In this document: piece by piece, positions 13,860 to 34,905 of the stretch
Numbering within the stretch: the stretch's first letter is position 1
Layout of the letters: every line of letters begins with the position of its first letter
NCBI RefSeq assembly: GCF_005233835.1
Contig: NZ_SZQA01000036.1
Span: 1 to 64,000, forward strand
Direction of reading: 5' to 3'
DNA length: 64,000 nt
DNA from: Herbidospora galbida
GTDB lineage: Bacteria > Actinomycetota > Actinomycetes > Streptosporangiales > Streptosporangiaceae
The notes under the pieces: model-generated
Databases searched by the model: none
What the model saw: only the letters and a program-made list of their open reading frames with translations
Told to the model about the DNA's origin: nothing
Made by a program: the position numbers and the translations under genes

Positions 13860-16262
13860 TCACGGGCCGACGTGCACGTATCCGGCCCAGAAGTAGGGAA
13901 AGCCGGGCCGCCGGTCGCGCAACGAGCGGACGGCCAGGTGCAGGGCCACGGCGGCGGCGTCCGCGCGCGGTTCCGCGGTGCCCTGCGCGGTGAGCACCTG
14001 GTAGACCGTGTCGACGATCGCCGGGGCGTGCACGTCGACGATCGGCCACAAGGTGCCGATGACGTGGGGGAACCCGGCCAGCTGCACGCTTCCGGCGAGG
14101 CTGGTGGCCTCGTCGGCGAGCACGTCGCCCCCGCGTGAGGTCTCACAGCCGCTGAGGAAGGCGAACTCGGCCCGGTCGAGCCGCCGCGCCGCGAGCTCCC
14201 GCAACGTCAGCGGCCGGTCCGACAGCAGCAGCCTGGCCACCGCCGGAGCGTCGAGCTCCTGGACGGCGTGGCCCGCGAAGTGCATCCAGGAGCATCCGTC
14301 CAGCAGGGCGAGCACGCGTTCGTGCGTGGCGTCCGGGCCCGTCAGCTCGTCGACGTCGCCGAGGTGACCGCGCACCAGTTCCAGCTCGCGGCCGACTCCC
14401 GCCAGCTCGCTCTCGCCGGGGGCCACGGGCACGCCGATCAGCAGCCTGCGGCGCTCGCCCTGCGGTCCGAGCCGGCTCCGGGCGTGGACGAGCGCCCGCA
14501 CCGTCGGGGTGTAGCTGGAGATGACCCGGTCGAGCGCCGGGCCGGCCGAGTGCAGCGGCAGCCCCGTGAGGGGTCCGGTCGGGCACCACCAGATCCGGGA
14601 CACAGGGCCGAGGGCGTCCAGAACGGGGCCGGTGACGTGGGTCCAGATCCAGTCGAGCGCCGTGGCCATCGCCCGCAGGTCGCGGTCGCGTACGGCCGCC
14701 GCGAACCGGTCCGCCTCCTGACGCGCCTCCGCCGCCGTGAGCGTGAGCGGCAGCACCCGGATTCCGCCGGTGGTCACCAGGAGCGCGTCACAGCCGTAGT
14801 CGCTGACGTTCACCAGGGCCACCGGGCCGCCTTCCGCCGCGGAGAGCAGCCCGGCGGCGCGGGGCGGTCTCAGGAAGCCGGTCAGGCCGGGCACCTTCCT
14901 GATCTCCGCCAGGAGTTCGCGGCGTCGGCGCGCCAGCACGGGCCGCTGGTCGAGGTGACGAGGTTCGCTCCGGTCGTCGTACAGGTCAGAGCGTTCGGCG
15001 AGGTCGAGGGCGTCCTGGAGCTGGGCGAGCTGCTCGGCGAGGCCGGGCGCCCTCTCCCGGAGGAGGTCCTGGGAGGTGCGGCTGTCGAGCACCTGTGCGA
15101 GCATGACGCCCCGGCCCTGCTCGAGCAGCTCAAGCGCGGTCTCCGGACGGCCGGCGCGGACGGCCGCGGCGGCGGCGTCGCGGGCGAGCCCCTCGTGGTC
15201 GGCCAGGACCCGTTCCTGGTCGTCGCGCCCCAGCCCGCGCCAGGCGGCCTCGTCGAGCACCCCCACCGCGACCGCGAACCCGTCGGTCGCCTCTGCCGGC
15301 CGGCCGCACTCCATGGCGAAGCGGCCCCACGCGCGTCCCACGCCGGCCCGCCAGGACGCGGCGGCGGCTTCCACCGCGGCGGCCTCGCGGAACCGCGCCA
15401 GCGCCTCCTCGCGAGCGTCCGCGGCGGCGGTCAGCCGCCACTGGTCGACGCGGATCTCCGCCAGGTGGTAGAGCGCCACCGACGCCTCCGTGCTCCCCGG
15501 CGCCGACACCTCCACCGCCCGTTCCATGGTCCGCAGCGCCTGGAGGAGCGTCCGAGACCGGCCGGTCAGCGTGAAACGCGCCTGGAGGGCCTGGCCCAGG
15601 AAGGCGTACGCCTCGGGTCCCGCCGTGGCGTCCTCGTCGAGCAGGCCGGTGAGCAGGGCGATCGCCTCGTCGAGCGCCGGCGTCTCCGCCAGCCTGCGCC
15701 CACGGGGGAGCAGGTCGCGGAGAACGTTCCACCGCCGGTCTCCCGGCGAGGCGACGCCGGGCGGTTCCGCCGCCCTGGCGACGGCGATCAGGGCGCCCGC
15801 CAGGTTGATCGTGGACTGGACGCGGGTGAGGGACTCGGGCGGCGCGTCGGCGCGGGCCGACCGGAAGAGACCGATCGCCTCGTCGAGGTCGTGGCCGCCC
15901 ACGAGAAGGGCGCGGGCGAGGCTGTTCATGAGCGCGGGGCGCTGGACGTTGGCGGGATGCACCGTCCGCACGGCCTCGCGCAGGTGGATGATCGCCTCGT
16001 CGAACGCCGCCGTCTGGCCGACGGCCTGGTAGCGCTCGAGCAGGACGCTGCCCAGGTTGCCGAGGTAGCCCGGCCGGTAGGGGCTGGCCTCCGGAGTGGC
16101 CGCGACGGCCTCGCGCAGTACGTCGGCGGCCTCCTCGGTGTCGGCGCTCCTCCGGGTCGCGCGGTAGCGCTGCTGCAGGGCTCCGCCGAGATTGCTCCGA
16201 TAGAGCGCGTAGTTGGCGTGCTCCCTCGACGTCGTGGACACCGCTTCGCGATGGCCGGCCAC
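13860..16262 (-). CDS. CHAT-protease/TPR protein, truncated at the N-terminus
   Basis: 800 residues from an in-frame GTG at 16262. Residues 1-480 are TPR-like repeats of the form RTGDPAELDEAVAGHREAV/NLGxxLxxRY; residues about 520-800 are a CHAT (caspase HetF-associated with TPR) domain with both catalytic residues present, His in MHFAGHAVQ and Cys in FLSGCETSRGGD. The frame runs open past the GTG to about 16297, and the extra residues (GDPAELDET) complete a repeat, so the annotated start cuts a TPR and the true N-terminus is missing. At about 16300 the sequence changes to a divergent TPR gene. Its likely former partners, CATRA and CATASP, lie 17 kb away on the same strand. Confidence 0.85.
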   Translation of the reverse strand: MAGHREAVSTTSREHANYALYRSNLGGALQQRYRATRRSADTEEAADVLREAVAATPEASPYRPGYLGNLGSVLLERYQAVGQTAAFDEAIIHLREAVRTVHPANVQRPALMNSLARALLVGGHDLDEAIGLFRSARADAPPESLTRVQSTINLAGALIAVARAAEPPGVASPGDRRWNVLRDLLPRGRRLAETPALDEAIALLTGLLDEDATAGPEAYAFLGQALQARFTLTGRSRTLLQALRTMERAVEVSAPGSTEASVALYHLAEIRVDQWRLTAAADAREEALARFREAAAVEAAAASWRAGVGRAWGRFAMECGRPAEATDGFAVAVGVLDEAAWRGLGRDDQERVLADHEGLARDAAAAAVRAGRPETALELLEQGRGVMLAQVLDSRTSQDLLRERAPGLAEQLAQLQDALDLAERSDLYDDRSEPRHLDQRPVLARRRRELLAEIRKVPGLTGFLRPPRAAGLLSAAEGGPVALVNVSDYGCDALLVTTGGIRVLPLTLTAAEARQEADRFAAAVRDRDLRAMATALDWIWTHVTGPVLDALGPVSRIWWCPTGPLTGLPLHSAGPALDRVISSYTPTVRALVHARSRLGPQGERRRLLIGVPVAPGESELAGVGRELELVRGHLGDVDELTGPDATHERVLALLDGCSWMHFAGHAVQELDAPAVARLLLSDRPLTLRELAARRLDRAEFAFLSGCETSRGGDVLADEATSLAGSVQLAGFPHVIGTLWPIVDVHAPAIVDTVYQVLTAQGTAEPRADAAAVALHLAVRSLRDRRPGFPYFWAGYVHVGP

Positions 16263-16300
16263 CGTCTCGTCGAGTTCGGCCGGGTCGCCTCTGCGGCGCC

Positions 16301-17377
16301 CTGGCCAGTCATCACGCCCCAGACGACCCCGAGATCCTGAGCGCCCAGGAGCTGTTCGCCGCGTTGACCGGTCACGCCGGTGACTTCAAAGCAGCCCAAG
16401 CCCAGTTCGCCGAACTACTGCCCATCACCGCCCGGGTGCTCGGCCCTCATCACCCCGACACGCTCACCGTCCAGCACAACCTCGCGCACTGGACCGGTAC
16501 GGCCGGCTATTTCGCGGCTGCTCGTGACCAGTTCGCCGAACTGTTGCCCATCCGCGAGCGGGTGCTAGGCCACGACCACCCCGATACCCTCACCACACGT
16601 CACAACCTCGGACTCTGGATCGGTCTGGCCGGTCAGGCCGCAGCCGCCCGCGACCAGTTCGCCGAACTGCTCCCCCACTCCCAGCAGATAGTTGGCTCCG
16701 AGCATCCCCTCACCCTGGCCGCACGCCACAATCTCGCACGCTGGAGGGGCGAGGCCGGCCAGCCCGCAGCCGCCCGCGACCAGTTCGCCGAATTGCTCAT
16801 CACCTCCGAGCGGGTCCTCGGCCCCGACCACCCCGATACCCTTGCCCTACGGCACAACCTCGCGGAATTGGTCAGCGATGCCGAAGCTGCCCGCGATCGG
16901 TTCGCCGAACTGCTGCCCATCTCCGAGCGGGTCCTCGGCCACCACCACCCCGGTACCCTTGCCACCCGTAACAGCCTGGCCAGATGGACGGGTAAAGCGG
17001 GAGACGTACGCGGGGCGCGAGATCAATTGACCGTTCTGCTGCCCTTCCGCGAACACGTCCTGGGCCCCGAACACCCCGACACGCTATCCACGCGCAGCAG
17101 CCTCGCCTACTGGACGGGAAAGGCAGGAGATGCGGCCGGGGCACGCGACCAATTCGCCGCACTACTTCTCATCCGCAGACGCGTCCTGGGCGAGAAACAC
17201 CCTCGCACCCTGTCCACCCGGAACAGCCTCGCCTACTGGACGGAATACTGCCAGTTAACGGGCGTTATCAGCCCGTCGGTAGAAGGTCACCGAGCGTTGG
17301 TGTTAGGAAAGCCAGGTCGAAGGCGGTCCGGGAAACTAAGTGACGTCAGCAGTTCAAACACAGCCCAGACATCCTGA
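16301..17377 (+). pseudogene. 5'-truncated TPR-repeat gene (tail of an NB-ARC/TPR protein)
   Basis: The frame has no initiation signal near its beginning; the first possible start is a TTG at 16364. It encodes seven tetratricopeptide units of about 42 residues with the pattern AARDQFAELLPIxERVLG-x2-HPDTL-x2-RHNLA-x-W-x-G-x-AG, then a short non-repeat tail. The same repeat ends the NB-ARC/TPR gene at 23.9-26.2 kb, so this is probably the 3' part of a second such gene, lacking its NTPase domain. It begins where the divergent CHAT gene is also cut, marking a rearrangement junction. Confidence 0.75.
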
Positions 17378-17487
17378 TCCATGGCGCACCGGCCATCCGC
17401 GCGGCCATCGGCTGCGCTCCGTGTGGGCACCTCGGCCCACGCACGAGGGGGAGGGCGCATGCGGTTAGCCTGCCGTGTGTGCCGCTC

Positions 17488-17922
17488 ATGCCCTATTTCG
17501 AGACGTGGGTTCATCGGCATGGGGAGCGGCTCCACCCAAACGGAGAACCGCTGGTGTACTGGACCGTCGCCCGCGACCATCAGCTGATGTTCGGGGTGCT
17601 GGCCATCCTGGTCGACGACCTGTGGGGCCGTCTGCCTGTCGTCCGCGAGGCTGGCCGGTGGGGCCGTCTGGTCGACCTGGCCGGTGGTTACAGCGTGCCC
17701 GACCTCAAGCAGGTCTTCCTCTGGGTGGACGGCCATCAAAAGGGAAACTCAAGCGCCTTGCAACCGGTGCCTCCTCCAATAGACCGCAGACGGGATCCCA
17801 CCGATCCACCAAGCACTTTCCTGCTGCTTGAACTTCCTGAGGAGGAACCATGCACGTCAGCTACCTGGCCCACCTGGCCGACGAGCAGCGAATGCGGCGC
17901 GCCCGTTCCGCCCGCCGCCTGA
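17488..17922 (+). CDS. hypothetical protein
   Basis: Not recognised. About 144 residues from ATG 17488 (an in-frame GTG lies at 17479). The first 85 residues are well-formed protein (MPYFETWVHRHGERLHPNGE, then ARDHQLMFGVLAILVDDLWG and VPDLKQVFLWVDGHQKG); the last 55 are proline-rich and overlap, in another frame, a small gene with a strong ribosome binding site at 17850. A frameshift near 17745 is therefore possible, making the real protein about 85-90 residues long. Confidence 0.4.
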   Translation: MPYFETWVHRHGERLHPNGEPLVYWTVARDHQLMFGVLAILVDDLWGRLPVVREAGRWGRLVDLAGGYSVPDLKQVFLWVDGHQKGNSSALQPVPPPIDRRRDPTDPPSTFLLLELPEEEPCTSATWPTWPTSSECGAPVPPAA

Positions 17923-17990
17923 ACGACCACGTCCCCGCCAACCGCCGGACCACCAACGAGAAGGGGACTGAGCCTGAATCCCCCGCGTGA
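17850..17990 (+). CDS. small basic hypothetical protein, 46 residues
   Basis: ATG at 17850 is preceded by GAGGAGG-like sequence (TGAGGAGGAACC) at ideal spacing. The peptide begins MHVSYLAHLADEQRMRRAR and ends in a polar tail (TTNEKGTEPESPA). Arg-rich and probably helical in its first half. No family recognised; the case rests on the Shine-Dalgarno sequence and composition. Confidence 0.4.
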   Translation: MHVSYLAHLADEQRMRRARSARRLNDHVPANRRTTNEKGTEPESPA

Positions 17991-18157
17991 TTACTTGTGA
18001 TCATTCTTCCGTTCCAATTCTTCGGCGAGGATCGTTTCGGCTGGTGAAGGCCGGGTTTCGGGTGTGGAAGGGCCGCCGTGCGCGGGTCACGGCCTGTCCG
18101 CGGGTCCTTCGGGTCGGGAGCGGTGGCGCTGGGAGCGTGGGTGACCATGTGTGGTCG

Positions 18158-18412
18158 TCACAAGCCGGCGGTGATCAGGGTGTGGGCGGTCAGGCCAGGT
18201 GGTGGCGGGGTGGCCTGTGAAGGGTGTCGAAGACGTTGAGCCAGGCGTCCATGGGACTTGGTCATCGTCAGGTCCCCTTCCGGGGTTGTAGCTAGTAGGT
18301 ACGCGGGGACGCCGTCGGCGCAGCCGCACTCGATCTCTTCGGGGTTCTCGGTGCTCCACCCGCACAAGGCGCACCAGTGGACGGGGTTGCAGACAGGTTC
18401 GGGTTCGGTCAT
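18158..18412 (-). CDS. small cysteine-rich (putative zinc-binding) protein
   Basis: 84 residues. Cysteines in VCNPVHWCALCGWSTENPEEIECGC form two C-x2-C/C-x-C pairs that could bind zinc; the C-terminal half is basic and proline-rich with no motif. GGAG precedes the ATG by a few bases. It follows the 58-residue gene by 6 nt and is probably co-transcribed with it. Such small genes are common in actinomycete integrative elements. Confidence 0.45.
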   Translation of the reverse strand: MTEPEPVCNPVHWCALCGWSTENPEEIECGCADGVPAYLLATTPEGDLTMTKSHGRLAQRLRHPSQATPPPPGLTAHTLITAGL

Positions 18413-18418
18413 CTCCGG

Positions 18419-18595
18419 TCAGCCGAACCGCTCGCGGAGCAGCTCGTCGAGCTCGCGCCGGGACTCGTTGATGTCGTTGAATAACCCGGACTGGCTGGTG
18501 CCGTGAGCGTCGGTGATCTCGGTGCTGGCGACGTCGAGCACGTCTTTCAGCCACAGTTCGTGGTCGCTGTTGTTGATCCTGCGGAACACGGACAT
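18419..18595 (-). CDS. small hypothetical protein, 58 residues
   Basis: Starts MSVFRRINNSDHELWLKDVL at the ATG 18595 and ends in a charged helix (INESRRELDELLRERFG). Family not recognised. It lies between a broken gene end at 18634 and the Cys-rich gene, all on the minus strand, so the three probably formed one operon. Confidence 0.45.
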   Translation of the reverse strand: MSVFRRINNSDHELWLKDVLDVASTEITDAHGTSQSGLFNDINESRRELDELLRERFG

Positions 18596-18633
18596 GGGCC
18601 CGATCTCCTCATCGTCTCGGGTCTGGGTGCGGG

Positions 18634-18762
18634 TCAGTCGCGGGGCTTGGACGTGCTGAACTCCACAGACGCGGCCGCGTGTCCGAGCGCCTGTGCCACG
18701 GCCCCCAGTTCGGCGGCCGCCTGGGTGACCCGGGTCTGGGGTTCGGCGGCGCTGATCGGCGC
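18634..18762 (-). pseudogene. C-terminal fragment of an unidentified helical protein
   Basis: The frame ending at 18634 reads SAAEPQTRVTQAAAELGAVA, then QALGHAAASVEFSTSKPRD before TGA, good coding composition, but it meets a stop at about 18766 where a DUF3846-like fragment begins on the other strand. It looks like the 3' end of the first gene of the minus-strand operon, cut by the same event that truncated the DUF3846 copy. Confidence 0.35.
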
Positions 18763-19016
18763 GGACTATGCCGTGCAGGAGGCCATCGAGCCTGGCCTGG
18801 ATCTGTGGACGGACGTCGGCCACCCCCGGACCGGCCAACGCGGCGGCCTCGGCGCTGGCCGCCGACCTGAGCGGCGAGCCGTGGCGGCACTATCACGGGC
18901 CCGTGGTGGTCTGCGGGGTGGAGCTGGGCGAGGCGGGCGAGGAATACGCCGTGGACCTGACCGGCGACCGGCTGGCGGCGCTGCGCCGGCGGCTCGGCCG
19001 CCACAGCGCGGAATGA
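18750..19016 (+). pseudogene. DUF3846-like protein remnant, copy 1
   Basis: Lacks the first 45 or so codons and has a frameshift near 18825. Before the shift it reads GADYAVQEAIEPGLDLWTDVG, after it PANAAASALAADLSGEPW, YHGPVVVCGVELGEAGEEYA and ends RRLGRHSAE. The same order of motifs occurs in the copy at 23.0 kb. Family assignment to DUF3846 is from pattern only. Confidence 0.5.
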
Positions 19017-19148
19017 GGGATGCCGTTAACGGACGCGTCATCAACCGCCAAGACCGCAATGAGCTCCCGGGGCCCCTCGGGCCTGTCGCGGCCTCATCGC
19101 CGGGCCATTTTGTGGGAGTGCCGGTAAGAAACGTGTCATGAGCCCCAA

Positions 19149-19372
19149 ACTGCCCTGCGCCAGGGCGTCAGCACCGAGGTCGTGGCCGGGCCCAACGCGA
19201 CCACGGCGCTGGCCCAGACGACGTGGCTCCCGGGGGAACTCCTCATCTGCGGGTCGAGTTCGACCGGCCCCCTGCGCCGCGTCTTCGCCGGCGACATGTC
19301 CCTGAAGATTCTCCGGACCGCCCCCTGCCCGGTGGTCCTCCTCACCCCGCTCGGCCACCCGGTAGCTCAGCC
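19149..19372 (+). pseudogene. universal stress protein (UspA) C-terminal fragment
   Basis: ALAQTTWLPGELLICGSSS, then TGPLRRVFAGDMSLKILRTA and PCPVVLLTP are the characteristic end of a UspA domain, including the GS-x2-GPLRRVF-type nucleotide-binding loop. There is no upstream part of the domain and no initiation site, so only the last 70 or so codons survive. It runs into the convergent VOC gene. Confidence 0.65.
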
Positions 19373-19753
19373 GAGCAGGTCCCAGCGGTTGCCCGCGACA
19401 TCCAGGAAGACCGCCACCCGGCCGTAGGGCTCGGTGCGGGGCACGGTCACGAACTCGACACCCGCGGCGGCCATCCTCCGGTACGCGCCCGCGAAATCGT
19501 CGACCCGCAGGAAGAAGCCGACCCGTCCGGCGGCCTGGTCGCCGACGACGGCCCTCTGGCGGTCGCTGTCGGCTCGGGCCAGCAGGATGCCCGTCCGGCC
19601 GCCGGGCGGGCGCACGACGACCCACCGCTTGGGGCGGCCGTCGTTGGTGAGCGAGGGCGAATCTTCGACGAGGTCGAAGCCCAGGGCGTCGACGAAGAAC
19701 GTGATGGCCGTGCCGTAGTCGTCGACGACGATCGTGACCAGGTCGATGTGCAT
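19367..19753 (-). CDS. VOC-family (glyoxalase/bleomycin-resistance fold) protein
   Basis: 128 residues, one glyoxalase unit pair. MHIDLVTIVVDDYGTAITFF opens the first beta-alpha-beta-beta-beta module; FVTVPRTEPYGRVAVFLDVAGNRWDLL closes the second, with the usual metal-ligand-type residues near His2 and the terminal Asp. Probably a small-molecule lyase or binding protein; substrate unknown. ATG 19753 is the only start that keeps the fold intact. Confidence 0.8.
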   Translation of the reverse strand: MHIDLVTIVVDDYGTAITFFVDALGFDLVEDSPSLTNDGRPKRWVVVRPPGGRTGILLARADSDRQRAVVGDQAAGRVGFFLRVDDFAGAYRRMAAAGVEFVTVPRTEPYGRVAVFLDVAGNRWDLLG

Positions 19754-19799
19754 GGTCGGTGATCGTAGGGGGGCCTCAGGCGGCCCGGCGCAGCGGCGC

Positions 19800-19922
19800 C
19801 AGCGCGGCGCTCCAGGCGACGGTCTGATCCTGGACGACGCGGGCGCGGAACACGACGTCGACCTCACCCCTGGCCAGCTTGACGCCCTGCGCCGGCAGCT
19901 CCGCCACCACAGCGCCGAATAA
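19800..19922 (+). pseudogene. DUF3846-like protein remnant, copy 3 (3' end only)
   Basis: Only the last 35-40 codons are recognisable: LILDDAGAEHDVDLTPGQLD and LRRQLRHHSAE before TAA, parallel to the ends of the copies at 19016 and 23380. The end is followed, as at 23.4 kb, by a shared element around GCTCGCGTTATGAGGACGGTT. Confidence 0.4.
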
Positions 19923-19945
19923 CGGTCAAACAGACACAGATCGGT

Positions 19946-19998
19946 CCAACATAATCGGGTTTCAGCTCGCGTTATGAGGACGGTTCGGTGACGACGAT
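19946..19998 (+). repeat. repeat element downstream of DUF3846-like gene (copy A)
   Basis: ACATAATC, then TTTC, then GCTCGCGTTATGAGGACGG and GTGACGA occur in the same order and spacing as at 23464-23516. The CATAA and TTATG parts form a short dyad. The rest of 19923-20160 holds nothing I can support. Confidence 0.5.
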
Positions 19999-20160
19999 CT
20001 CGCGAGTGTGGGTGGGCGGCTGGAGCTGTACCGATACCACATCGCCATGGTGGTGGCGCGCTCCGCGCCGGCTGCGGCCACCATCGCCAGCGCCGTTGCG
20101 TTGCTTCCTGGACTTCCCAGTGGCGCCTACGACCCCGTAGCCGATACTCGGGCGCGACGC

Positions 20161-20394
20161 TCAGGAGTCGCGGCGGGCATTCCTTCGCGGCGCGATGAAG
20201 ACGGCCCAGGCGGCCACACCCAGGGCCGGACCGAAGGACGAACCTAGCCCGACACCGTAAGTGAGGTTGTCGAAAAAACCCCCGACGACGACGCCGACGA
20301 GGACGCCGAAGGCAGCGCCGAATGCGATCCAGATCCCGAGATTTGCCCAGATCCCGAGACCTGCGGCGGGCGGGGGCGTGTTGTTGCTCGTCAT
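20161..20394 (-). CDS. small glycine-rich membrane protein
   Basis: 77 residues from ATG 20394 (MTSNNTPPPAAGLGIWANLG). Two hydrophobic glycine-rich segments, IWIAFGAAFGVLVGVVVGGFF and SSFGPALGVAAWAVFI, flank a short polar loop; the tail is basic. GGGAGA precedes the ATG. Resembles small actinomycete membrane proteins of unknown role. Not related in frame to the neighbouring ABC genes. Confidence 0.55.
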   Translation of the reverse strand: MTSNNTPPPAAGLGIWANLGIWIAFGAAFGVLVGVVVGGFFDNLTYGVGLGSSFGPALGVAAWAVFIAPRRNARRDS

Positions 20395-20506
20395 TGCATC
20401 TCTCCCAAGGACGCGGGCGGACAGGGCTGACAATCTGGCGGCCCATCACGGCGGATGTTGGCGTTCACGTTGTCCGGTGTCCGGAGCGGCCGAGTGCCCG
20501 CCGCGC

Positions 20507-22490: not shown

Positions 22491-22510
22491 CGTTGGCTTA
22501 GCCGCCCAAC

Positions 22511-23894: not shown

Positions 23895-26190
23895 ATGAGC
23901 TGTGTGAGCGATGGCGTTCAGGGACCGGGCGGCGCGTCGCCGGACGGCCAGAGTGTGAGCGGGTCGACAGTGGGTGGTCACCTCAACCAGGTGAGTGCCA
24001 GTGAGGTGACCATCCATCAGAATGCGCCGCGGCCGCCGTTGCCGGACGCGGCCATGGTGTCCGGTCTGCCTGTGGGATCGGGATTAGGTCTGCCGCGACC
24101 GCCGGCTGCGGTGTTCGCCGGGCGCAGGGACGCGCTGGAGCAAATTCATGCCTGCCTATCCGGTTCAGGGCCGGACGTCGCGGTGATTACGCAGGCGGCG
24201 GTGCATGGGCTAGGCGGGATCGGTAAGAGCGAGTTGGCGTTGCAGTACGCGGCCGCTCATCGGAGCGCTTATGGGCTGGTGTGGTGGATAGATGCCGATT
24301 CCCCAGCGCAGATCCGGACGGGTTTGGCCAGGCTGGCTAAGACGCTGTGCGTGGGATCGCATTCGGTGGCGGCCTCCCAGGCCACTACCGAAGAGGCAGC
24401 AGCGTGGGCGATGAGCTGGCTTGCTTCCCAGCGGGGATGGCTGCTCATCTTCGACAACGTCGAGCAGGCCGAGGACCTGCACCCGTATCTGGGCCGGCTG
24501 ACGGGCGGAGGTGTGCTGATCACTACCCGCCGCACCGTCGGCTGGCGCGCGCTTGGTTGCGTCTCCATCGGCGTGGACGTCCTGGACGCCGAAGCGGCCG
24601 TCACCGTACTGGCCGCCTTGATCGGTCTTGCTCCGGCCTCACCGTCGGAGCTGGTTGAGCTGGCCGCTCTGGCGCGGGAGGTGGGATTTTTGCCGCTGGC
24701 CTTGACCCAGGCTTCGGCATTTATCGCCCACACCCCCGGCATCGGTATCACCGACTATCGGCAGATGCTGCACCACACCCCTGCTACAGCCACTGCGGCG
24801 GTCGGCGCCGGCGGTGAGGCCGCTGAGCAAACCATCGCCAAGATCTGGACCCGGACCCGCGACCGGATCGCCACGCTGGACCCCGCTGGCCCCTCACCTG
24901 CTGGCTCTGCTGGCTTGCTACGCACCCGACCATCTGCCCTTGAGCGTTCTGCACCGGCTTGCGGACACCAGCCGGGTCCGCCTCGGACAGGCGCTGGGGG
25001 TGCTCACCTCCTACAGCATGATCACCCTCAGCAAAGCTCAGGACGCGGTCAGCGTGCATCGCCTGGTCCAGGCCGTCACCCTGGCCGACCTCCCCGATGA
25101 CCAGTACCAAGCCGTTCGAGCCAAGGCCGTCGACCTGCTGAGTGCCTCACTGCCCGACGACCCGGAAACGATCGACAGCTGGGCAACTTACCAGCAGCTA
25201 CTGGCGCATGCTCGCGCGGCCTTGCCTCCGCACTCGCCCGCGATGGGCAAGATGATCGAGTACCTGCACGCCAGCGGCGACTACACGACCGCCGCCGCCT
25301 TGCAGCACAACCGCCATCAGGCCCTTCTCCACAGCCAAGGACCGGAGCATCCCGACACGCTGGTGGCTCTCGCCGGTTTCGCCTACTACACCGGGATGGC
25401 GGGTGATGCGGTGACGGCGCGCGACCACTTCACCGCGCTGCTGCCGCTGTTCAAACGAGTTTTTGGTGATGAGCACCCGAGAACACTGGAGGTTTGGGGC
25501 GAACTCGGCGCCTGGACGGGATTTGCGGGGGATGAGGCCAAAGCGCTGAACCTCTTCATTGCGCTGCTGCCCGTCCGCGAGCGGGTGCTGGGAGCTGAGC
25601 ACCCCGATACGCTCAACGACCGGTCTAACATCGCCCGCTTAACGGGTGAGCTGGGAGACGAGGCCAGCGCGAGGGACCAATTCGTTGCGCTACTGCTCAT
25701 CCGCGAACGCGTCCGGGGCGCCGAACATCCCTCCACGTTGATCGACAGGGACAACCTCGCCTTCTGTACGGGCGCGGCCGGAGATGCGGCAGGCGCGCGC
25801 GATCAGTACACCGCGCTGCTACCCATCCGCGAACGCGTCTCCGGCCCCGAACACCCCGAAACGCTGACCACCCGGCACAATCTCGCCTACTGGTTGGGGG
25901 AGACGGGCGATGCGGCCAGGGCACGAGATCAATACATCGCGCTGTTGCCTATCAGCGAACGCGTCTCAGGCCCCGAACATGCCGACACTCTGGCCGTTCG
26001 GTTTAATCTCGCTCGCTGGTCGGGGGAAGCGGGGGATGCGGCCGGGGCGCGCGACCAGCTCGCCGCACTATTGCCCATCAGCGAACGCGTCTCAGGCCCC
26101 GAACACCCCGACACTCTGACCACCCGGCACGAACTCACCTACTGGACGGATCGTTGCCGGAAAACGGACGCCGAAGGGCCCGCCCTGTGA
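23895..26190 (+). pseudogene. NB-ARC/TPR (STAND) NTPase with one frameshift
   Basis: Two frames that fit together as one protein of about 764 residues. The first (ATG 23895) has a polar N-terminus with SGSTVGGHLNQVSASEVTIH, then Walker A VHGLGGIGKSELALQYA (about 105-121), Walker B GWLLIFDNVE and the GxP-like FLPLALTQASAFI. At the C-run 24881-24884 one extra C moves the frame; removing it gives RIATLDPLAPHLLALLACYA and then six to seven 42-residue TPRs (ARDQFxALLPIRERVxGPEHPDTL). No effector domain is obvious besides the short N-terminus. Proteins of this build act as ligand-triggered switches in conflict systems. Whether the frameshift is real needs reads. Confidence 0.7.
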
Positions 26191-26261
26191 CGGCTTTGTG
26201 AGCCCAAATGACTGAATCGATATTGGGTCCGTCATAAGCGAAGTTATGCAGGAAGATCATT

Positions 26262-26303: not shown

Positions 26304-26362
26304 CCCGGCGGGGGCCGGACGCTCGATCTTTCTGCCTGAGGCGCTGGCAGGTCTAATGGGTT

Positions 26363-26629: not shown

Positions 26630-26794
26630 CGCCGGGGCTACCGGCCGCGCTTGCCGTAGTCGCTTCCCGGATCCAGCCAGCACTGCGATTCGTCGCGTGC
26701 CGGTGGTCACCGCGGCGCACGACGAAAGGGGACGCACGCGAGATCAGGGCCCCTGATCTTCCATCTTGCTCAGTGGTTGTCAACCCTCTGATCT

Positions 26795-28901
26795 TCAGTT
26801 CGGGGAAGAGTCAGCGGCGAGGTGATCCTGGAGATCGGCGTGCCGGAATTGGTAGATCGGGCCGACCGCGCGCAGCAGCCCCAGCCGGTGCGCGTCATCC
26901 AGGAACGGCATCAACGCGCGGGGCAGCCGACCTGCCCAGGCAAGCCGGTAGGTGGCGACTAGATACGCCAGCCACGCATGGTGGTTCCCGGATACGAGCC
27001 CGACCGCGAGCCCGTCTGCGGACCCTCCCACAAGCCCAAATGCGAGCCCGAACACGAGCCCGCCCATGAGCATGAACGTGGCAGTCCTTACGAGATTCAG
27101 GGCGCGGTCGGCTCGCCAACTGGTCATCGGTGCCGTCGCCCGTTCTGCTCCGGACGGAACCTCAACCCACGTGATTAGCCCGACCACGAGTCCGAACGCG
27201 AGCCCGAACGCGAGCCCAAGCACAAGCCCAAACACAAGCCCGCCCACGATTCCGCTCACGAGTCCGAATGCGAGCCCGAACACAAGTCCGCCCGCGAGCC
27301 CGAACGCGAGCCCGCCCGCGAGCTGCGACACCCGACCGTGTAGGCGGAGATTTGTTAATCCCGGTTCCTCCAAAAGCCATGACCCGCCCATGAGCCCGAA
27401 CACAAGCCCGACCATAAGCCCGAACACAAGCCCGAACACAAGCCCGAACACAAGCCCGAACACAAGCCCTAACGCGAGCCCGCTCGCGAACCTGATTGTG
27501 GCCGTGAACATGCGGGTGCCCTGAGCGAGGCGCCACCAAGCGATGTCGCGGGTGGGCGCGCTGCCATCTGGGGGGCGGGTCATGGTTCGGGCAAGGTAGG
27601 CCAGCCATCGGCGGGTCTGGACGGGGTCGTGGCGGTGGCGGGGCCGGAAGGGGTCGGCGGGGTCGGCACTGGGCGAGCGTGTAGTGACGAGTGCGGGGAT
27701 GAGCTGGTCGAACAGGTGGCCGCGCAGTTGGTCGGAGTCAGGGAACCGGACAGGATCCAGCAGCGGTGCGGGGTCGACGCGGCCGTCGATGTAGACGACG
27801 CGCAGAAGCCACAGACCTAAAGCAGTTCTGGCAACCGCAGCCAGCGTCGCGCCGGGATGCACCGTCATGGCGGCGGGTGCCGTGCGTAGCACAGCCAGGA
27901 CTTGCTCCCATTTGGCCTGTGGCTGTGGGGGAAGGCATCGTTTCAGATATGCGGCGGCCGCCTTCGGGATGACGGGCTGGGGCTCGATGACCATGGCCGA
28001 GGTGAGCACATCTCCTGCGCCCCGGACGGTGTGGCGGAACTCGCTAGTCCGGGCTGGTCGCGATCAGCTGATCGGTTTTGGACAGGGACTGGTTCAGCGC
28101 CACGATGACGGCCTGCTGCGCAGGAGGGGGGAGTTCATCTAAGCCGTCCAGAACCGGCAGAATGTGCCCGCGCGCGGCCAGCATCTCGGCCATCCCGGCA
28201 GGCAGGTCCGGTGCGCGCAGCGCGGGGTAGTCCTGAGCGAGCCGGGCTGCCAACCACTGGTGCAGGCGAGGGAAAGCCTCGGTGTCCCAGTCGGCCATGG
28301 GCATCAGCACCGGCACCGGTTCATCGGGGTGGGCGGCGCGGGTCGCCATCAGTTCGCGGATCAGCTGGACGGCCAGGGTGGTTTTGCCGGTTCCAGGGTC
28401 TCCGAGGATGACCAGTCGGCGGCGGCGCATGCTGCGGAACTTGCCGGTCAGGGCGGCGATGTCGGCGCTGGAGGCGGTCAGCCGCCGCAGCCCCGGGGTG
28501 AGGTTGGCCGGCTGATCCATCACCGCCACGATGGCGGTCTGCCGCCATCGCACCGGGATCGGGTCGGGGTCATCCAGCGAGCGCAGCGTGACTTCGGTCT
28601 TCCACTGCTGTTCCACCAGCCCGGCCAGCACGTCTTTGGCGTGGTCCAGGTGTGCTGAGGTAACCGCCGGCCGGGCCGTCGAGCGTCGCCACCACAGCCA
28701 TAACGGCACCAGCACCGTCGGAACCACCAGGACAACGCCGACCAGTTGGGCCACGTTCGCCGCCGCTTGTAACCCATCCTTGCCGCTCAGCGCCCAGCCG
28801 ATGAGTGCCAGCAGCCCAGTCACGCCTGCCACGCCGGCCCACCAGGTCAGCGCGTACCGCCACGAACCGCCCCACCTCGCCATGACCAAATCCTGCGCCA
28901 T
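26795..28901 (-). pseudogene. membrane NACHT NTPase with Gly-Leu-x-x repeats, copy 1, frameshifted
   Basis: About 701 residues if one base is removed. Two N-terminal membrane segments (TWWAGVAGVTGLLALIGWAL and VGVVLVVPTVLVPLWLWW, within 18-70), then a NACHT domain with Walker A ILGDPGTGKTTLAVQL (about 165) and Walker B ILPVLDGLDELPP (about 237). At the G-run 28051-28053 (plus strand) one extra base creates a stop after LIATS; without it the frame continues SRTSEF. The C-terminal half carries three blocks of tetrapeptides (GLVF, GLAF, GLVS) and ends YQFRHADLQDHLA. Paralog of the gene at 29.0 kb, of which it is a tandem duplicate. Confidence 0.75.
27392..27490. repeat. 12-bp tandem repeats encoding GLVF units
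   Basis: GAACACAAGCCC-type 12-mers on the plus strand encode Gly-Leu-Val-Phe on the minus strand, about eight units in this block. Two more degenerate blocks follow within the same gene at about 27175-27330 and 26990-27070. They give long Ser-Pro-Asn frames on the plus strand that are shadows. Confidence 0.7.
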
Positions 28902-28966
28902 CCGGCCTCAGCACACCCACGAGGGAAACGAACTGTGACTAACCCGCATCCGCTGGATGCGTGGAT

Positions 28967-28988
28967 GAATACGACACAGTCGAATACG
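28967..28988. promoter_or_regulatory. direct-repeat element upstream of NACHT copy 1
   Basis: GAATACG at 28967-28973 and 28982-28988, 15 bp apart, with ACACAGTC between, 66 bp upstream of the NACHT start. The same block stands before copy 2 at 31363-31384, while most surrounding noncoding bases differ. Confidence 0.5.
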
Positions 28989-29015
28989 TCACGGTGCCAG
29001 TCAACCCTCTGATAT

Positions 29016-31297
29016 TCAGCGCGGTGGCGGATCGGCGGCGAGATGGTCCTGGAGATCGGCGTGCCGGAACTGGTAAACCGGACCGACCGCGCGCAGCAGG
29101 CCCAGCCGGTGTGCGTCATCCAGGAATGGCATCAACGTGCGAGGCAGATGGCCCGCCCGGGCCAACCGGTAGGTGGTAATTAGATACGCCAGCCACGCAC
29201 GGTGGTTCCCGACCGTGAGCCCGACCGTTAACCCGACCCCGAGCCCGACCCCGAGCCCGGTCCCGAGCCCAGCCGTGAGCCTGGCCGCCGCGAGCCCGGC
29301 CGCGAGCCCGGCCGCGAGCCCGAACGCGAGCCCGAACGTGGTGGCCCGCATGAGATTTAAGGCACGGTCAGCTCGCCAACTGGCCATTGGTGCCGTTGCA
29401 TGTTCTGTTGTGGCCGGGACCTCAGCCCACTCCATTAGCCCGAACGTGAGCCCGAACGGGACCCCAACCACGAGCCCGACCGCGATCCCGGCCGCGATCC
29501 CGGCCGCGATCCCGTCCACGAGCCCGAACACGAGCCCGACCGCGATCCCGACCACGAGCCCGAACACGAGCCCGACCGCAAGCCTGCGGGCGAGCAGCGC
29601 CTCTCGACCTTGCAGGCGGAGGTTGGCGAACCCTGGTTCATCCGATGGCCATGACCCGACCGTGAGCCCGACCTCGAGCCCGACCTTGAGCCCGACATCG
29701 AGCCCGCCAGCGAGCCCGACCGCAAGCCCGACCTCGAGCCCGACCTCGAGCCCGACCTCGAGCCCGACCTCGAGCCCGACCTCGAGCCCGACCTCGAGCC
29801 CGACCTTGAGCCCGACATCGAGCCCGCCAGCGAGCCCAATCGCGAGCTCGAATACGAGCCCGATTGCGAGCCCGGAGATGAGCCCGACCGCGAGCCTGGA
29901 TGTGATGGTGAGGCTGCGGGTTGTCTGGGCCAGGCGCCACCAGGCGAAGTCGCGGGTGGGTGGGCTGCCATCTGGAGGATGGGTCATGGTGCGGGCCAGG
30001 TAGGCCAGCCATCGGCGAGCTTGGCCGGGGTTGTGGCGTCGGCGGGGCCGGAAGGGGTCGGCGGGGTCGGTGCTGGGTGGGCGTGTGGTGATGAGGGCGG
30101 GGATGAGCTGGTCGAACAGGTGGCCACGCATCTGTTCGGGGCCGGGGAAGTGGCCGGGGTCCAGGAGTGGCGTCGGGTCGGCGCGGCCGTCGATGTAGAC
30201 CACGCGCAGCAACCACAGGCCCAAGGCGGTGCTGGCGACCGCGGCCAGCGTCGCGTCGGGATTCTCTGCGGTCGTGCTGGAGGGCGTCGTGCGTAGGACG
30301 GACAGGATCTGCTCCCATCCCGCCGACGGCTGTGGCGGCAGGCAGCGCTCCAGGTAGGCCGCGGCCGTCTTCGGGGTGACGGGCTGGGGTTCGATGACCA
30401 GGGCCGAGGTGAGGACGTCTCCCGCGCCGTCGACGGCGCGGGCGAACTCGGTGGTCCGGCTGGTGACGATCAGCTGATCAGTGTCGGCCAGTGACCGGTT
30501 CAGCGCCACGATGAGGGCCTGCTGCACGGCAGGAGGGAGCTCGTCCAGGCCGTCCAGAACCGGCAAGATATGTCCGCGCGCGGCGAGCGCCTCCGCCATG
30601 TCAGCGGGCTGGTCGGGTGCGCGTAGCGCGGGGTAGTCCTGATCGAGTCGGGCGGCCAGCCATTGGTGCAGTCGGGGGAAAACCTCGGTGTCCCAGCTGG
30701 CCACCGACATCAGCACCGGCACCGGGTCGGCGGGATGGTCTGCCCGGGTGGCCAGTAGTTCGCGGACCAGCTGGACGGCCAGGGTGGTCTTGCCGGTGCC
30801 GGGGCCGCCGAGGATGACCAGGCGGCGGCGGTTCATACTGCGGAACTTTTCGACCGCGGCGGCGATGTCGTTGCTGGAGGCGGTCAGCCGCCGCAGACCG
30901 GGGGTGAGGTTTGCGGGTTTGTCTATGATCGCTTTAGTGCGGGTCAGGCGCCAACGCAGGCCGGGTCATCCACCGATCGCAGCGTCGCCTCGGTCTTCCA
31001 CTGCTGTTCCACCACCCCGGCCAGGACGTCCTTGGCGTGGTCGACGTGTGCGGAAGTGACCGCTGGCCTTGCTGTCGAGCGCCACCGCCACAGCCATAAC
31101 GGCACCAGCAACGTTGGGACCACCAGGACGACACCGACCAGCTGGGCCAGGTTCGCCGCTGTCTGCAGCCCGTCCTTACCGCTCAGGGCCCAGCCGATGA
31201 GTGCCAGCAGCCCGGTCACGCATGCCACGCTGGCCCACCAGGTCAGCGCGTACCGCCACGAACCGCCCCGCCTCGCCATGATCAAATCCTGAGTCAT
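29016..31297 (-). pseudogene. membrane NACHT NTPase with charged Gly-Leu-x-x ladder, copy 2, frameshifted
   Basis: About 755 residues by comparison with copy 1. The N-terminal part (MTQDLIMARRGGSWRYALTW, two membrane segments) ends in a stop at 30944. Relative to copy 1, ten bases are missing after the LRSVDDP motif near 30960, which moves the frame; the rest resumes LRWRLTRTKA and DKPANLTPGLRRL, then Walker A ILGGPGTGKTTLAVQLV, Walker B VLDGLDELPP, sensor LIVTSRTTEF. The first repeat block is longer than in copy 1 and carries acidic or basic residues: GLDV, GLKV, GLEV. C-terminus YQFRHADLQDHLA as in copy 1. The 606-residue second frame could only start at ATG 30836, immediately before Walker A. 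Confidence 0.75.
29660..29850. repeat. 12-bp minisatellite encoding the GLEV ladder
   Basis: GAGCCCGACCTC (plus strand; Glu-Val-Gly-Leu on the minus strand) is repeated six times without change at about 29735-29810, within a larger duplicated block (GLAGGLDVGLKVGLEV appears twice). The perfection of the units suggests recent slippage or expansion. Confidence 0.75.
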
Positions 31298-31362
31298 TCC
31301 GTCCCAGGACACCCGCAGCAGGCACGAACCGTGACCAACCCGCATCCGCCGAGTGCGTGGAC

Positions 31363-31384
31363 GAATACGACACAGTCGAATACG
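31363..31384. promoter_or_regulatory. direct-repeat element upstream of NACHT copy 2
   Basis: GAATACG at 31363-31369 and 31378-31384, the same 15-bp period and the same ACACAGTC spacer as at 28967. It stands 66 bp before the ATG of copy 2, equal to the distance in copy 1. Confidence 0.5.
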
Positions 31385-31419
31385 TCACGGTGCCAGTCTC
31401 GGGTTCTCCGGCAACGCAA

Positions 31420-31453
31420 AGGGCCCCGGCGCCGGTGACGGCGTCGGGGCCCT
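31420..31453. terminator. strong GC hairpin, likely terminator
   Basis: AGGGCCCCGGCGCC (31420-31433) pairs with GGCGTCGGGGCCCT (31440-31453), 13 of 14 positions, around GGTGAC. The interval 31454-31792 before the Tn3 transposase shows no gene and no terminal inverted repeat that I can identify with confidence. Confidence 0.5.
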
Positions 31454-31792
31454 GCTGGTCTTCTGGGATCCTTCTCTGTGTGCCCGGGGCCGGCATCAAC
31501 GGTCCCCGGCATCTCAGCGATCGGGCAGGCGCGTGAGCGGGGTCACCGGCAGTCCCGGACCTCCGCCGGGAGGGTCTGCGCGGTCAGGCGGAGCCGGTCG
31601 TGTAGGGGTGTCGGTAACGAAGCTGTCATGAAGTACACGCGTTGACGACCGCCCAAGTCAGCGGGAGGACTTGAGCTCGTTTCCTGGATCGGTGGGTGGG
31701 CCCGATCTTGTGCGGCCAGTATTGATCCGGATTCGTCGGTTTGCTGCGGGTTCGCGAGACGGCGCCTGCAGCCTGCGAGAGCCGGGTGTGCC

Positions 31793-33738
31793 GTGGCGCG
31801 TGTGCTGGACGAGGACGAGCTCGTCGGAAACTGGACGCTGGTCGGGGACGAGCTGGCGCTGCTGTCGAACCGCCGCGGCCCGACGAAGCTGGCGTTCGCG
31901 TTGTTGTTGCGCTTCTACGCGCTGAACGGCAGGTTCCCCAAGGGGCGCTATGAGCTGCCTGACCAGGCGGTCGGCTACGTGGCGCGGCTGGTGAGGATCC
32001 CGGCGGAGGATCTGGCGCTGTATGAGTGGGACGGCCGCACGATCAAGGACCACCGCAAGGACATCCGCGAGTTCTTCGGATTTCGGGAGTGCTCGGTCGC
32101 GGACGCTGACAAGGCGGCGGACTTGCTTGCCGCGGACGTGTGACAAGGAACGGCAGGAAGACCGGGTGCGGGAGGAGCTGCTGGCGCACCTGCGGGAGGA
32201 GAAGATCGAGCCTCCTGCCCGGGACCGGATCAAACGGATCATCGGATCGGCGATCAGCCAGGCCGAGAAGGCGCAGACCGTCCTGATCGCCAGCCGGGTC
32301 CCGCCCGAGGCGGTCGCCCGGATGCTGGCGTTGATCGCGAGGACTTCCGACCCGGGCGCGGGGGACGACGGTGAGGACGGGGATGAGGGCGCGTTGTTCG
32401 ACGCGGCCGAGCTGTCCGGGGCGGATGTGTTCGCGCGGATCCGGGAGGAGCCGGGAAACGTGAGCGTGAAGACGATTGAGAAGGAGGTGGCCAAGCTCAA
32501 GGCGGTCCGTCAGGTCGGTCTGCCCGACGACCTATTCAGCGACGTCGCGCCGAGGATTCTCGCGTCGTTGCGGGCGCGGGTGGCGGCCGAGGCACCCAGC
32601 CAGTTGCGGCGGCCTCCGCACGACATCAAGGTGACGCTGTTGGCCGCTTACCTGTCGTGCCGCGGCCGCGAGATCACCGACACCCTCGTCGACTTGCTGA
32701 TCGCGACGGTGCACCGGATCAACGCCCGCGCGGACACGAAGGTGACCGGCGATTTCGTGGCGGAGCTGAAGCGGGTGTCGGGCAAGGAGACCATCTTGTT
32801 CAAGATGGCCGAGGCCGCGTTGGAGGCACCTGAGTCCCGGGTCGAGGACGTGATCTATCCGGCGGTGCCGGGCGGTCACAAGACGCTGGTGTCGCTGCTG
32901 CACGAGTTCAAGGCCAAAGGGACGTCGTACCGGCAGCACAAGCAGCGGGTGTTCAAGGCCTCCTACACCAACCACTACCGGACCGGCCTGATCCAGATCA
33001 TCGAGGCGCTGGAGTTCGGGTCGACGAACACGGTGCACGCGCCGATGATGGACGCATTGGCGCTGATCAAACGCTACAAGGCCGAGCAGTCGAACCGGAT
33101 CAAGTGCTACGCGCTCGGCGAGCGCGTTCCGGTCGACGGCGTGATGCCGACGGAGCTGGTAGAGCTGATGTACTGGGCCGACAGCCAGCGCCGTCAGCGG
33201 ATCCTGCGGACGGTGTATGAGTGCGGGGTGTTCCAGAGCCTGCGCGACAAGCTGCGCTGCAAGGAGATCTGGGTGGTCGGGGCGGACCGGTGGCGCAACC
33301 CCGACGACGACCTCCCCACCGACTACGAGGTACGCCGCTTCGAGAACTACGCCAAACTCCGCAAGCCCCTCGATCCGAGCGTGTTCATCGACGAGCTGCG
33401 CGACGAGCTCGACTTCGAACTGTCCCAGCTCAATGACGCGCTCGGTGGCCGAGGACTGCCCTGGTTGAAGATCTCCGACCGCAAGACCGGCGCGATCCAG
33501 CTGTCCCCGCTGGACGCGGCGCCCGAGCCGGTCAACCTGCGGCGGCTCAAGGCTGCGATCCGGGCCCGGTGGGGCGTGGTGCCGCTGATGGACATGTTCG
33601 CTGAGACCGCGCTGCGCACCAGCTGCCTGTCCGTCCTCAACCCGGTCGGTGTGCGTAGCGAACTCGACCCGCAGGAGCTGTTCGAACGGCTGCTCCTGGT
33701 GATCTACGCCTACGGGACTGGCACCGGGATCCGGGCCG
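31793..33738 (+). pseudogene. tnpA: Tn3-family transposase, frameshifted and 3'-truncated
   Basis: Starts MARVLDEDELVGNWTLVGDE, the DUF4158-type N-terminus of actinobacterial Tn3 transposases. The first frame stops at 32143; coding sense resumes in another frame with DKERQEDRVREELLAHLREE, a gap best explained by loss of two bases. The second part includes SYRQHKQRVFKASYTNHYRTG, VELMYWADSQRRQRIL, DRWRNPDDDLPTDYEVRRFE and ends RLLLVIYAYGTGTGIRA at about 33738, where antisense CATRA sequence begins. About 650 of the usual 990-1000 codons remain and the DDE catalytic part is missing, so it is inactive. Confidence 0.85.
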
Positions 33739-33739
33739 C

Positions 33740-34640
33740 GGCGGCCATCGGCCACCGCGGCGATCTCCCGGGCGCGTTCACGGGAGGCGTCGGCGTAGGC
33801 CAGGTCGTCGTCGAGCCGGAGCAGGAACCAGTCGGCCAGCGCCAGGTCGTCGGCCAGTGCCGTCACTCTCATGTTGTGGCGGGCGATCTCCACGGTCCGC
33901 CGCATCTCCCGCAGCCGCGTGAGGGTCCAGATCAGTCCGGCGGCGGCCGTCTGCCGTTCGGTCAGTTCGAGCCGGGCCGACGCGGAGACCTCCCCGCCGA
34001 GCATCGTCAGGAGCGTGTCGGCCTGCTCGTCCACCCGTCGCCGCGCGGCGCGGATCGCGCGACCGTCCTCGTACACGCGCAACTGGTAACGGATCTTCGC
34101 GGCGTGCAGCAGATGGCGCGGGAGGGGCGCCAGGCGATCGTCGCCCGAGGTCCACGCCCAGGCGTCCAGCCCCGCCTCCAGGGACCGCGGCGCCACCAGC
34201 AGGAACGTCCGCGACGAGCGGTCGTCTCCGCCGTCGCCGGTCTCCCGGACCGCCACCCCGTCGACGATCGTGTCGGCCTCGGGCGGGGAACCGTAGCCGA
34301 CGAACAGCAGGCACTCTCCGACGGCCCAGTCCCGGGTGTCGCCCGCGCAGTCGCGCCACACCCGGGCGAGGTCGCCCCAGGCCGACCCGGTCAGGGCCAG
34401 GCTGAGCACCCGCATGTCGTGTTCGTCGCGCAGGATCGCCTGCCGCAGGGGTTCCCCGGCGGCGGTCAGCACCCGTACCCGCCCCACCGTCTTCTCCACG
34501 GTTTCCAGCCGTCCGGCGAGGGCCTCCCAGGCGCGTTCCAGGCGCTCTGTCCGCTCGGCGGCGTCCGGGCCGGTCAGCGCCACGAAGAGGTGGACGATCA
34601 GCCCGGGATCGGCCAGTCCGGGTAAGTCAGGGGGCGTCAT
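33740..34640 (-). pseudogene. CATRA-like conflict-system protein, 3'-truncated
   Basis: About 298 codons before the frame enters antisense transposase sequence. MTPPDLPGLADPGLIVHLFV starts the protein; later motifs are DWAVGECLLFVGYGSPPEAD, RTFLLVAPRSLEAGLDAWAW, HLLHAAKIRYQLRVYED and LADWFLLRLDDDLAYADASR. The combination with the overlapping small gene upstream matches CATRA (caspase and TPR repeat-associated) systems as I recall them. The start overlaps the CATASP-like gene by 14 nt. The stop is lost; the frame runs on to 32532 without meaning. Confidence 0.65.
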
Positions 34641-34905
34641 CGGCGGGCTCCGGTTCGGCCGCGCCCAACTTGTGGATCAGCTCGTTGACCCGGTCGCGCA
34701 GCTCCGCGGGCATGGGAATCTCGGGCGGATCGCCGAATCGGGTGACGATCCTCGCCGGTCCCGCCAGTTCGAGGTACCCGAGGTCGGCCGCCACGTCGTC
34801 GGAGGCGGCGAGGGTGCGGACCGCAGCGTCCACGGCGGCCCAGCCGGTCGCCGGGAGGCTCCACTTCAGGGAACGGCGGAGCAGGTCCACCGCGTCGTCG
34901 TGCAT
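34627..34905 (-). CDS. CATRA-associated small protein (CATASP-like)
   Basis: 92 residues from ATG 34905, which has GGAGG 5 nt upstream. MHDDAVDLLRRSLKWSLPAT begins an amphipathic helical N-terminus; the rest has YLELAGPARIVTRFGDP, MPAELRDRVNELIHKLG and an acidic Pro-rich tail. It is the first gene of the CATRA-type unit and overlaps the next gene by 14 nt, so the two proteins were made together. Assignment rests on length, pattern and context. Confidence 0.6.
   Translation of the reverse strand: MHDDAVDLLRRSLKWSLPATGWAAVDAAVRTLAASDDVAADLGYLELAGPARIVTRFGDPPEIPMPAELRDRVNELIHKLGAAEPEPADDAP

Follow-up and report, generated by a model that had tools for sequence, protein, structure and literature searches.

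In the window analysed here, a 64,000-nucleotide stretch of DNA comprising bases 1-64000 of one contig of the Herbidospora galbida draft genome (8.31 Mb in 116 contigs), we find CATASP and a truncated CATRA gene at one end of a block of inserted DNA and an N-terminally cut CHAT-TPR protease gene at its other end, and we consider the two pieces to be, probably, the dead relic of one CATASP-CATRA-CHAT conflict unit that was split by an insertion plus a deletion. The initial annotation of this DNA had placed the three genes on the minus strand, with breaks at about 16300 and 33738; Pfam confirms the genes and their places, and both breaks proved correct to within about 15 bases. The features that carry this reading are the following.

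13853 to 34946, no strand: the whole insertion, between two genus-conserved genes (left edge 13844-13857, right edge 34946-34975).
34627 to 34905, minus strand: CATASP, the intact small partner protein, ATG at 34905 (Pfam PF20271, E 6e-24; match to our own hidden Markov model (HMM) at 34636-34905).
33747 to 34640, minus strand: CATRA core (CATRA-N plus CATRA-C), cut just past CATRA-C, with the C-terminal module gone (PF20269, PF20270; homology to the relative L125 ends at residue 298).
33734 to 33752, no strand: right joint, CATRA against tnpA (tnpA DNA matches, HMM end, end of CATRA homology).
16295 to 16298, no strand: left joint, CHAT-TPR against a TPR fragment (ends of homology).
13860 to 16295, minus strand: CHAT-TPR protease gene, truncated in its N-terminal TPR part and keeping the CHAT domain with His and Cys (PF12770, E 3e-36; conservation; comparison of N-terminal lengths).

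The 13.85-34.95 kb block is absent from all six same-genus genomes compared, which align at 89-97% up to 13,844-13,857 and then again from 34,946-34,975, leaving an empty site with a gap of 7 to ~370 bases and no collinear, untruncated version of the 13.8-35 kb region. The left edge of the block lies no more than ~15 bases from the CHAT stop and the right edge just upstream of CATASP, so that, given the absence of the block from these six genomes, CHAT stands at one edge and CATASP at the other edge of a single insertion. The CATASP-CATRA and CHAT pieces thus belong to the insertion themselves, and the 17.4 kb between them is nested inside it. The earlier proposal that an island of this size had split the genes is borne out in part, by the non-collinear slot and the facing broken ends, but not in its simple form, as the 17.4 kb is no clean insertion and lies within a larger one.

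CATASP is intact, as had been annotated, in one open frame that adjoins CATRA, the two reading frames overlapping at 34627-34640. The CATRA core retains CATRA-N (PF20269, E 5e-22; a partial match covering profile positions 2-128 of 203 in its best stretch) and a complete CATRA-C (PF20270, E 1e-31; 1-137 of 137, residues 171-290), and the matches to all three families, PF20271 included, lie above their cut-offs. Beyond CATRA-C, 40 of 40 relatives carry 87-461 residues, counted to the first stop, which the window copy lacks, having only ~8 homologous residues before antisense tnpA sequence begins; the break therefore removes the whole C-terminal module, a loss that the initial annotation had left to be mapped. 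Because the window CATRA groups with transmembrane-type relatives, a stalk and membrane helices, roughly 90-160 residues, were most likely what the cut removed. Past residue 298 the CATRA frame runs on without a stop, antisense to a Tn3-family tnpA on the plus strand (NF033527), which makes the resulting 702-aa open reading frame (ORF) an accident of a GC-rich antisense frame; we rejected it as a meaningful CATRA fusion protein.

At the opposite edge, the CHAT domain is nearly complete (profile positions 4-288 of 289), and the previously noted retention of its His and Cys is supported by conservation across the CHAT rows compared, with His701, His705 and Cys746 of the window protein (P0003) conserved in 55/55, 54/55 and 55/55 rows, respectively. 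In the best matches, homology begins at residue 30 (16,295), beyond the first in-frame start, GTG at 16,262, and 48 of the 58 CHAT frames compared reach beyond the window's cut, the excess being 37 to 1081 residues measured from stop to stop; at the level of homology, the N-terminal loss is real. A sequence search of P0003 against solved chains gave no match at E 0.01. Elsewhere in this genome, contigs 25 and 113 begin, within their first 500 bases, inside CHAT genes that are 31% and 29% identical to the window CHAT and are not near copies of it; since both contigs start in this way, CHAT genes may break this assembly.

Each joint breaks two genes. At the right joint, DNA similarity to tnpA relatives stops at 33,733/33,734, except for an 80-bp match that reaches 33,752; the Tn3 transposase profile extends to 33,749, and CATRA remains homologous to its closest relative as far as 33,747. 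At the left joint, CHAT-TPR faces a TPR gene fragment on the opposite strand, which led us to reject homologous recombination between the two TPR genes. Since the inner block terminates in a broken gene on either side, its origin requires either an insertion accompanied by a deletion or the end-joining of a DNA fragment; we rejected a clean transposition of these 17.4 kb for the same reason and because only a single putative Tn3 end was seen. Single open frames persist in CATASP, in the CATRA core and in what remains of CHAT, and four inner genes (two NACHT genes, an NB-ARC-TPR gene and tnpA) carry frameshifts; either the inner DNA had decayed before it entered or the split is recent.

CATRA systems are defined by a caspase/CHAT-TPR partner, and a CHAT frame lies in the examined flanks of 32 of the 40 CATRA loci that we surveyed besides the window; in the window, a CHAT-TPR gene with His and Cys is present, but it is cut and 17.4 kb off. 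The 40 loci came from a first relatives search (18 loci; 120 genomes, 13 with a match), a genome scan (3), CHAT genes (1), and a class-wide search of 394 genomes together with a Streptomyces-wide search of 392 genomes (the remaining 18); the window and L128, a duplicate of L109, are excluded, as are CATRA matches below 60 bits and CHAT matches below 40 bits, so that L182 with its weak CHAT counts as having none. Labelled by stop-to-stop frames and the nearest CHAT, nine loci are divergent, nine are CATRA>CHAT tandem, eight convergent, six CHAT>CATRA tandem and eight without CHAT, although the multi-CHAT loci L110, L148, L175, L181 and L184 could be labelled otherwise. The CATRA>CHAT tandems (L111, L124, L127, L170, L171, L172, L173, L177 and L180), whose frames abut or overlap, include one on contig 12 of the same genome (L124), from which it follows that a CATASP-CATRA-CHAT operon exists in nature and that CHAT-TPR genes do stand next to CATRA. 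L124 has the order and strand proposed for the window, as CATASP-CATRA(TIR)-CHAT-TPR; it differs in being contiguous (27 bp between stop-to-stop frames), in retaining its TIR module and in a CATRA only 32% identical. All four arrangements occur, for which reason we do not accept contiguity as proven by gene order.

The window CATRA is sister to L125 (100/100) in a 41-row CATRA tree and next groups with L109 plus L169 (94/90), all of the transmembrane type, and an earlier 22-row tree, which was without L114 and L128 and preceded the addition of L168-L185 (the larger tree restores L114 and adds these), agrees on this placement. L125, from Streptomyces sp. MBT53, encodes CHAT-TPR, CATASP and a CATRA with a stalk and two membrane helices, and its CATRA core is 54-58% identical to that of the window; in contrast to the window, it is contiguous, its module is present, CHAT precedes CATASP, and its CHAT falls elsewhere in the CHAT tree. 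In a 55-row CHAT tree, the window CHAT groups with five rows from CATRA loci, L107, L175, L177, L179 and L181 (84/86, and 94/88 within; not starred), giving moderate support to a place among CATRA-linked CHATs. The CHAT trees omit short fragments (e.g. L113) as well as L110 (38-row tree) or L110 and L126 (55-row tree).

Taking these observations together, former contiguity of the three genes, which the initial annotation had proposed, appears likely, with the operon order found in nine of 40 CATRA loci in its favour, together with the single insertion that holds the pieces at its edges, their common strand, the usual neighbourhood of CATRA and CHAT, and the few CHATs in this genome. Several observations weigh against it. 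Gene order varies, an intact unit in this slot was found in no genome, and in L125, to which the window CATRA is closest, the genes run CHAT-CATASP-CATRA and the CHAT comes from a different part of the tree. In an earlier 38-row CHAT tree the window joined the CATRA-linked L107 at 99/94, and this strong support was lost at 55 rows, where the nearest rows by path length and identity include the CHATs without CATRA L131, L136 and L133 (45%), L131 being so labelled because it has CATASP only. Moreover, 10 of the 58 CHAT frames, including four of the nine tandem relatives (L170, L172, L173 and L180), stop short of the window's cut, some of them because the contig or stretch begins there or the frame is a fragment, so that the loss from CHAT may be small. 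Finally, 18 of 20 further CHAT loci, chosen after CHATs already in CATRA loci had been set aside and in part on short contigs, have neither CATRA nor CATASP in their examined flanks; CHAT-TPR genes are not bound to CATRA, and partner swapping is evidently common.

The last of these points feeds the alternative that CHAT-TPR and CATASP-CATRA were never one unit and are two independently truncated pieces in a hot spot of conflict genes, a setting that the NACHT and NB-ARC genes of the block would suit. The nearest CATRA and the nearest CHAT relatives sit in different loci, and the proposed order in nine of 32 neighbouring pairs is about what four equal arrangements would yield. Set against this, the whole 8.3-Mb genome holds just eight CHAT matches, the window's included, the two pieces, on one strand, form the opposite edges of a single insertion, and the window CHAT groups with the five CATRA-linked rows, all of which leads us to regard separate origins as unlikely. 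We think it quite improbable that the ancestral order was CHAT-CATASP-CATRA on a larger element which opened between CHAT and CATASP on entry, which would make the outer edges rather than the inner joints the former CHAT-CATASP neighbours, the inner breaks reflecting later decay. CHAT does end ~15 bases before CATASP in L125, the block edges lie near the CHAT stop and just upstream of CATASP, and a 7-base match, ACGGGCC, which may be chance, occurs near both; yet there is no integrase among the 20 window ORFs scanned, and no tRNA gene in the window, comparison of 45 bases at one edge with 60 at the other revealed no longer repeat in common, and such an opening requires two extra truncations where nine relatives offer the simpler order. 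An assembly error at one or both joints seems highly improbable even in a draft of 116 contigs with genes broken on either side of both joints, for the window contains no second copy of any 16-mer or 20-mer that spans a joint (some 12-mers recur, 3/12 and 7/12, as does one 14-mer per joint), and no near copy elsewhere in the genome was listed when 3.0-3.6 kb around each joint served as query; with no repeat seen at either joint, a short-read misjoin is unsupported.

Under the reading that we favour, a single unit later split, a complete transmembrane-type CATASP-CATRA-CHAT unit would have been gained in the intergenic slot between the two genus-conserved genes and subsequently disrupted internally, so that ~17.4 kb of partly decayed foreign DNA now stands in place of the CATRA 3′ end and the CHAT-TPR 5′ end. 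The TPR part of CHAT-TPR in intact relatives may sense a trigger, upon which the caspase-like CHAT protease would act on CATASP and/or CATRA, and CATRA would then deploy its C-terminal module (stalk and membrane helices in this lineage; TIR, GT4 or EAD1 elsewhere) to disable the cell. Having lost its module, some of its sensor and its operon linkage, the window copy is most likely non-functional as the predicted defence or suicide system. The locus thus reads as a fossil, suggesting that a conflict unit can be lost through foreign DNA captured in the middle of its operon, in a slot that is empty in six sister species.

Compared with the CATRA ternary conflict system (PF20269, PF20270, PF20271), the window is alike in having CATASP directly before CATRA, both CATRA domains and a same-strand CHAT-TPR, and differs in the missing module and in a CHAT-TPR that is N-terminally cut and 17.4 kb away. 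The combination of TPR and CHAT protease domains is also that of the type III-E CRISPR TPR-CHAT protease of Craspase (PMC11089037), whereas no Cas protein occurs among the 20 window ORFs scanned. The window locus is a break in a known kind of system, and the wider CATRA pattern is the better lead: across the 40 loci, a constant head is followed by a C-terminal module that differs by clade, with a stalk that changes in sevens and a predicted layout resembling CorA.

The module after CATRA-C is TIR in 13 of these loci, a membrane tail in 19, GT4 in three (L122, L148 and L184), EAD1 in one (L185, by Pfam) and without a Pfam assignment in four. TIR was called with Pfam PF10137 in five tested loci and with a profile of our own for the rest, and L122 and L184, first labelled as transmembrane by hydropathy, were corrected by Pfam. 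Module type tracks the 41-row CATRA tree, requiring three changes against a shuffled mean of 18.5, with a value as low in 0 of 200 shuffles. The 19 membrane tails share a Q-x3-[YF]...P signature where the first membrane helix ends, and the distance to it from the conserved Asp of CATRA-C is 51 residues in 11 sequences, 58 in four, 65 in three and 83 in one, so that 18 of the 19 distances differ by multiples of seven, in sequences that are related and do not represent 19 independent events. As the stalk length steps by seven, we infer an oligomeric coiled-coil stalk kept in heptad register, and a membrane effector that the CHAT protease would hold or release.

AlphaFold2 models of the L125 CATRA (predicted local distance difference test (pLDDT) 83.5, predicted TM-score (pTM) 0.71, from five sequences) and of the window core (81.3 and 0.77) comprise an alpha/beta head and a helical domain, to which L125 adds a long helix (278-358) leading into a C-terminal helical hairpin; the window cut lies inside that long helix. 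A Foldseek search with the full L125 model returned 23 matches at E <=0.001 (best 7.5e-5, probability 1.00, TM-score 0.27, root-mean-square deviation 19 Å), three of which we presume to be CorA, the others being named CorA. Among the best 50 rows, 43 are named CorA, one CmaX, and six are Thermotoga maritima D89/D253 mutants, which we take to be CorA as well. For the window core, the top ten are CorA or Mrs2, with a best E of 9.4e-3 and none at 0.001. The layout predicted for transmembrane-type CATRA, with an alpha/beta domain, a helical domain, a long stalk helix and a C-terminal membrane hairpin, resembles that of the CorA/Mrs2 magnesium channels. CATRA differs from them in that no CorA-family Pfam match was found at E 0.01 in ten CATRA proteins, nor in nine more, and in that the L125 CATRA has no GMN motif by eye. 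A sequence search for a solved relative of CATRA gave one match, at E 0.64, taken as chance. With TM-scores of 0.18-0.32 in the Foldseek rows, this is a likeness of layout, not proven homology; a literature search did not return such a layout for CATRA, and we do not claim it as unpublished.

On these models, CATRA might be a CorA/Mrs2-like scaffold turned suicide effector, in which the head and helical domain would feed a stalk into the membrane and other members would swap in TIR, GT4 or EAD1, the window copy being a head-only truncation that might bind CATASP or poison the other CATRA systems of the genome; we put this forward tentatively, and doubt it more than we believe it. If the stalk pattern and the CorA-like layout hold, transmembrane-type CATRA would be an oligomeric membrane pore released or opened by that protease.

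Two further observations concern CATRA proteins outside the window. The four loci whose tails lack a Pfam match beyond CATRA/CATASP (L107, L175, L176 and L181) form one clade of the CATRA tree (95/97), and their tails of ~220-250 aa look alike by eye and resemble a nucleotide cyclase by eye, possibly representing a further effector type. One of them, L176 (7365-9488, minus strand), has CATASP (residues 22-105) and CATRA in a single open frame and lacks a CHAT match in the examined flanks; it is a possible natural CATASP-CATRA fusion, which would hint at direct contact between the two.

A second unit, CATASP-CATRA(TIR) convergent with CHAT-TPR, occurs genus-wide, on contig 73 of this genome (L123) and as orthologues in L115, L116, L117, L118 and L114. 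In L117 (G005) and L118 (G002), CHAT has been deleted with different endpoints and CATASP partly or largely deleted, with the CATRA-TIR frame still open; this parallel joint loss suggests that CATASP and CHAT act as a pair. The ratio of nonsynonymous to synonymous substitution rates (dN/dS) of CATRA-TIR is 0.19-0.44 in seven pairs involving L117 or L118 and 0.20-0.24 in the three pairs formed by intact units. G006 (L114) lacks the front of CATRA instead.

The inner DNA of the block also carries a GntR regulator, an ABC ATPase and a glyoxalase protein, beside the following features.

16298 to 17254, plus strand: 5′-truncated TPR gene fragment facing CHAT-TPR (Pfam TPR_10/TPR_12; tblastn, residues 413-748 of a 760-aa frame in L063).
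23925 to 26175, plus strand: NB-ARC-TPR gene of the FxSxx-COOH type, frameshift at ~24.88 kb (NF040586, E 4e-50, below its cut-off; frame change relative to L063 and L065).
26798 to 28907, minus strand: NACHT gene copy 1, a tandem paralogue, frameshift at ~28.05 kb (PF05729; frame change).
29019 to 31297, minus strand: NACHT gene copy 2, frameshift at ~30.96 kb (PF05729; frame change).
31605 to 31661, plus strand: putative left end of a Tn3-type element (89% identity to a 57-bp stretch in G009:C33).
31796 to 33749, plus strand: Tn3-family tnpA, model positions 2-614 of 954, frameshift at ~32.13 kb (NF033527, below the family cut-off; start codon by eye).

The TPR fragment lacks roughly 400 or more N-terminal residues, other registers being possible among its repeats, and tnpA lacks ~340 C-terminal residues. 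A full Tn3 transposase with its catalytic C-terminal part and two terminal repeats was not found in the window, where one putative end alone is seen; we take 31605-31661 to be a Tn3 end by its resemblance, and 26 of its bases form a stretch found nowhere else in the window. A search of 13-36 kb gave no RNA family at gathering score, and PADLOC-DB gave no match for proteins P0001-P0003 at E 0.001 and only weak matches, to the two NACHT frames.

Within the same inner DNA, ~440 bp of the window (17742-18181) is 97% identical to contig 62 of this genome (196931-197370), and part of it is 96% identical in G003; the segment includes a small ORF from ~17850 (by eye), the start region of which (~50-60 bp) recurs in several sister genomes. 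Two further pairs of segments, 18753-19016/23115-23380 and 19913-19994/23429-23510, lie 3.5-4.4 kb apart at 76-91% identity and perhaps reflect duplication of a promoter and small gene of the FxSxx-type cluster.

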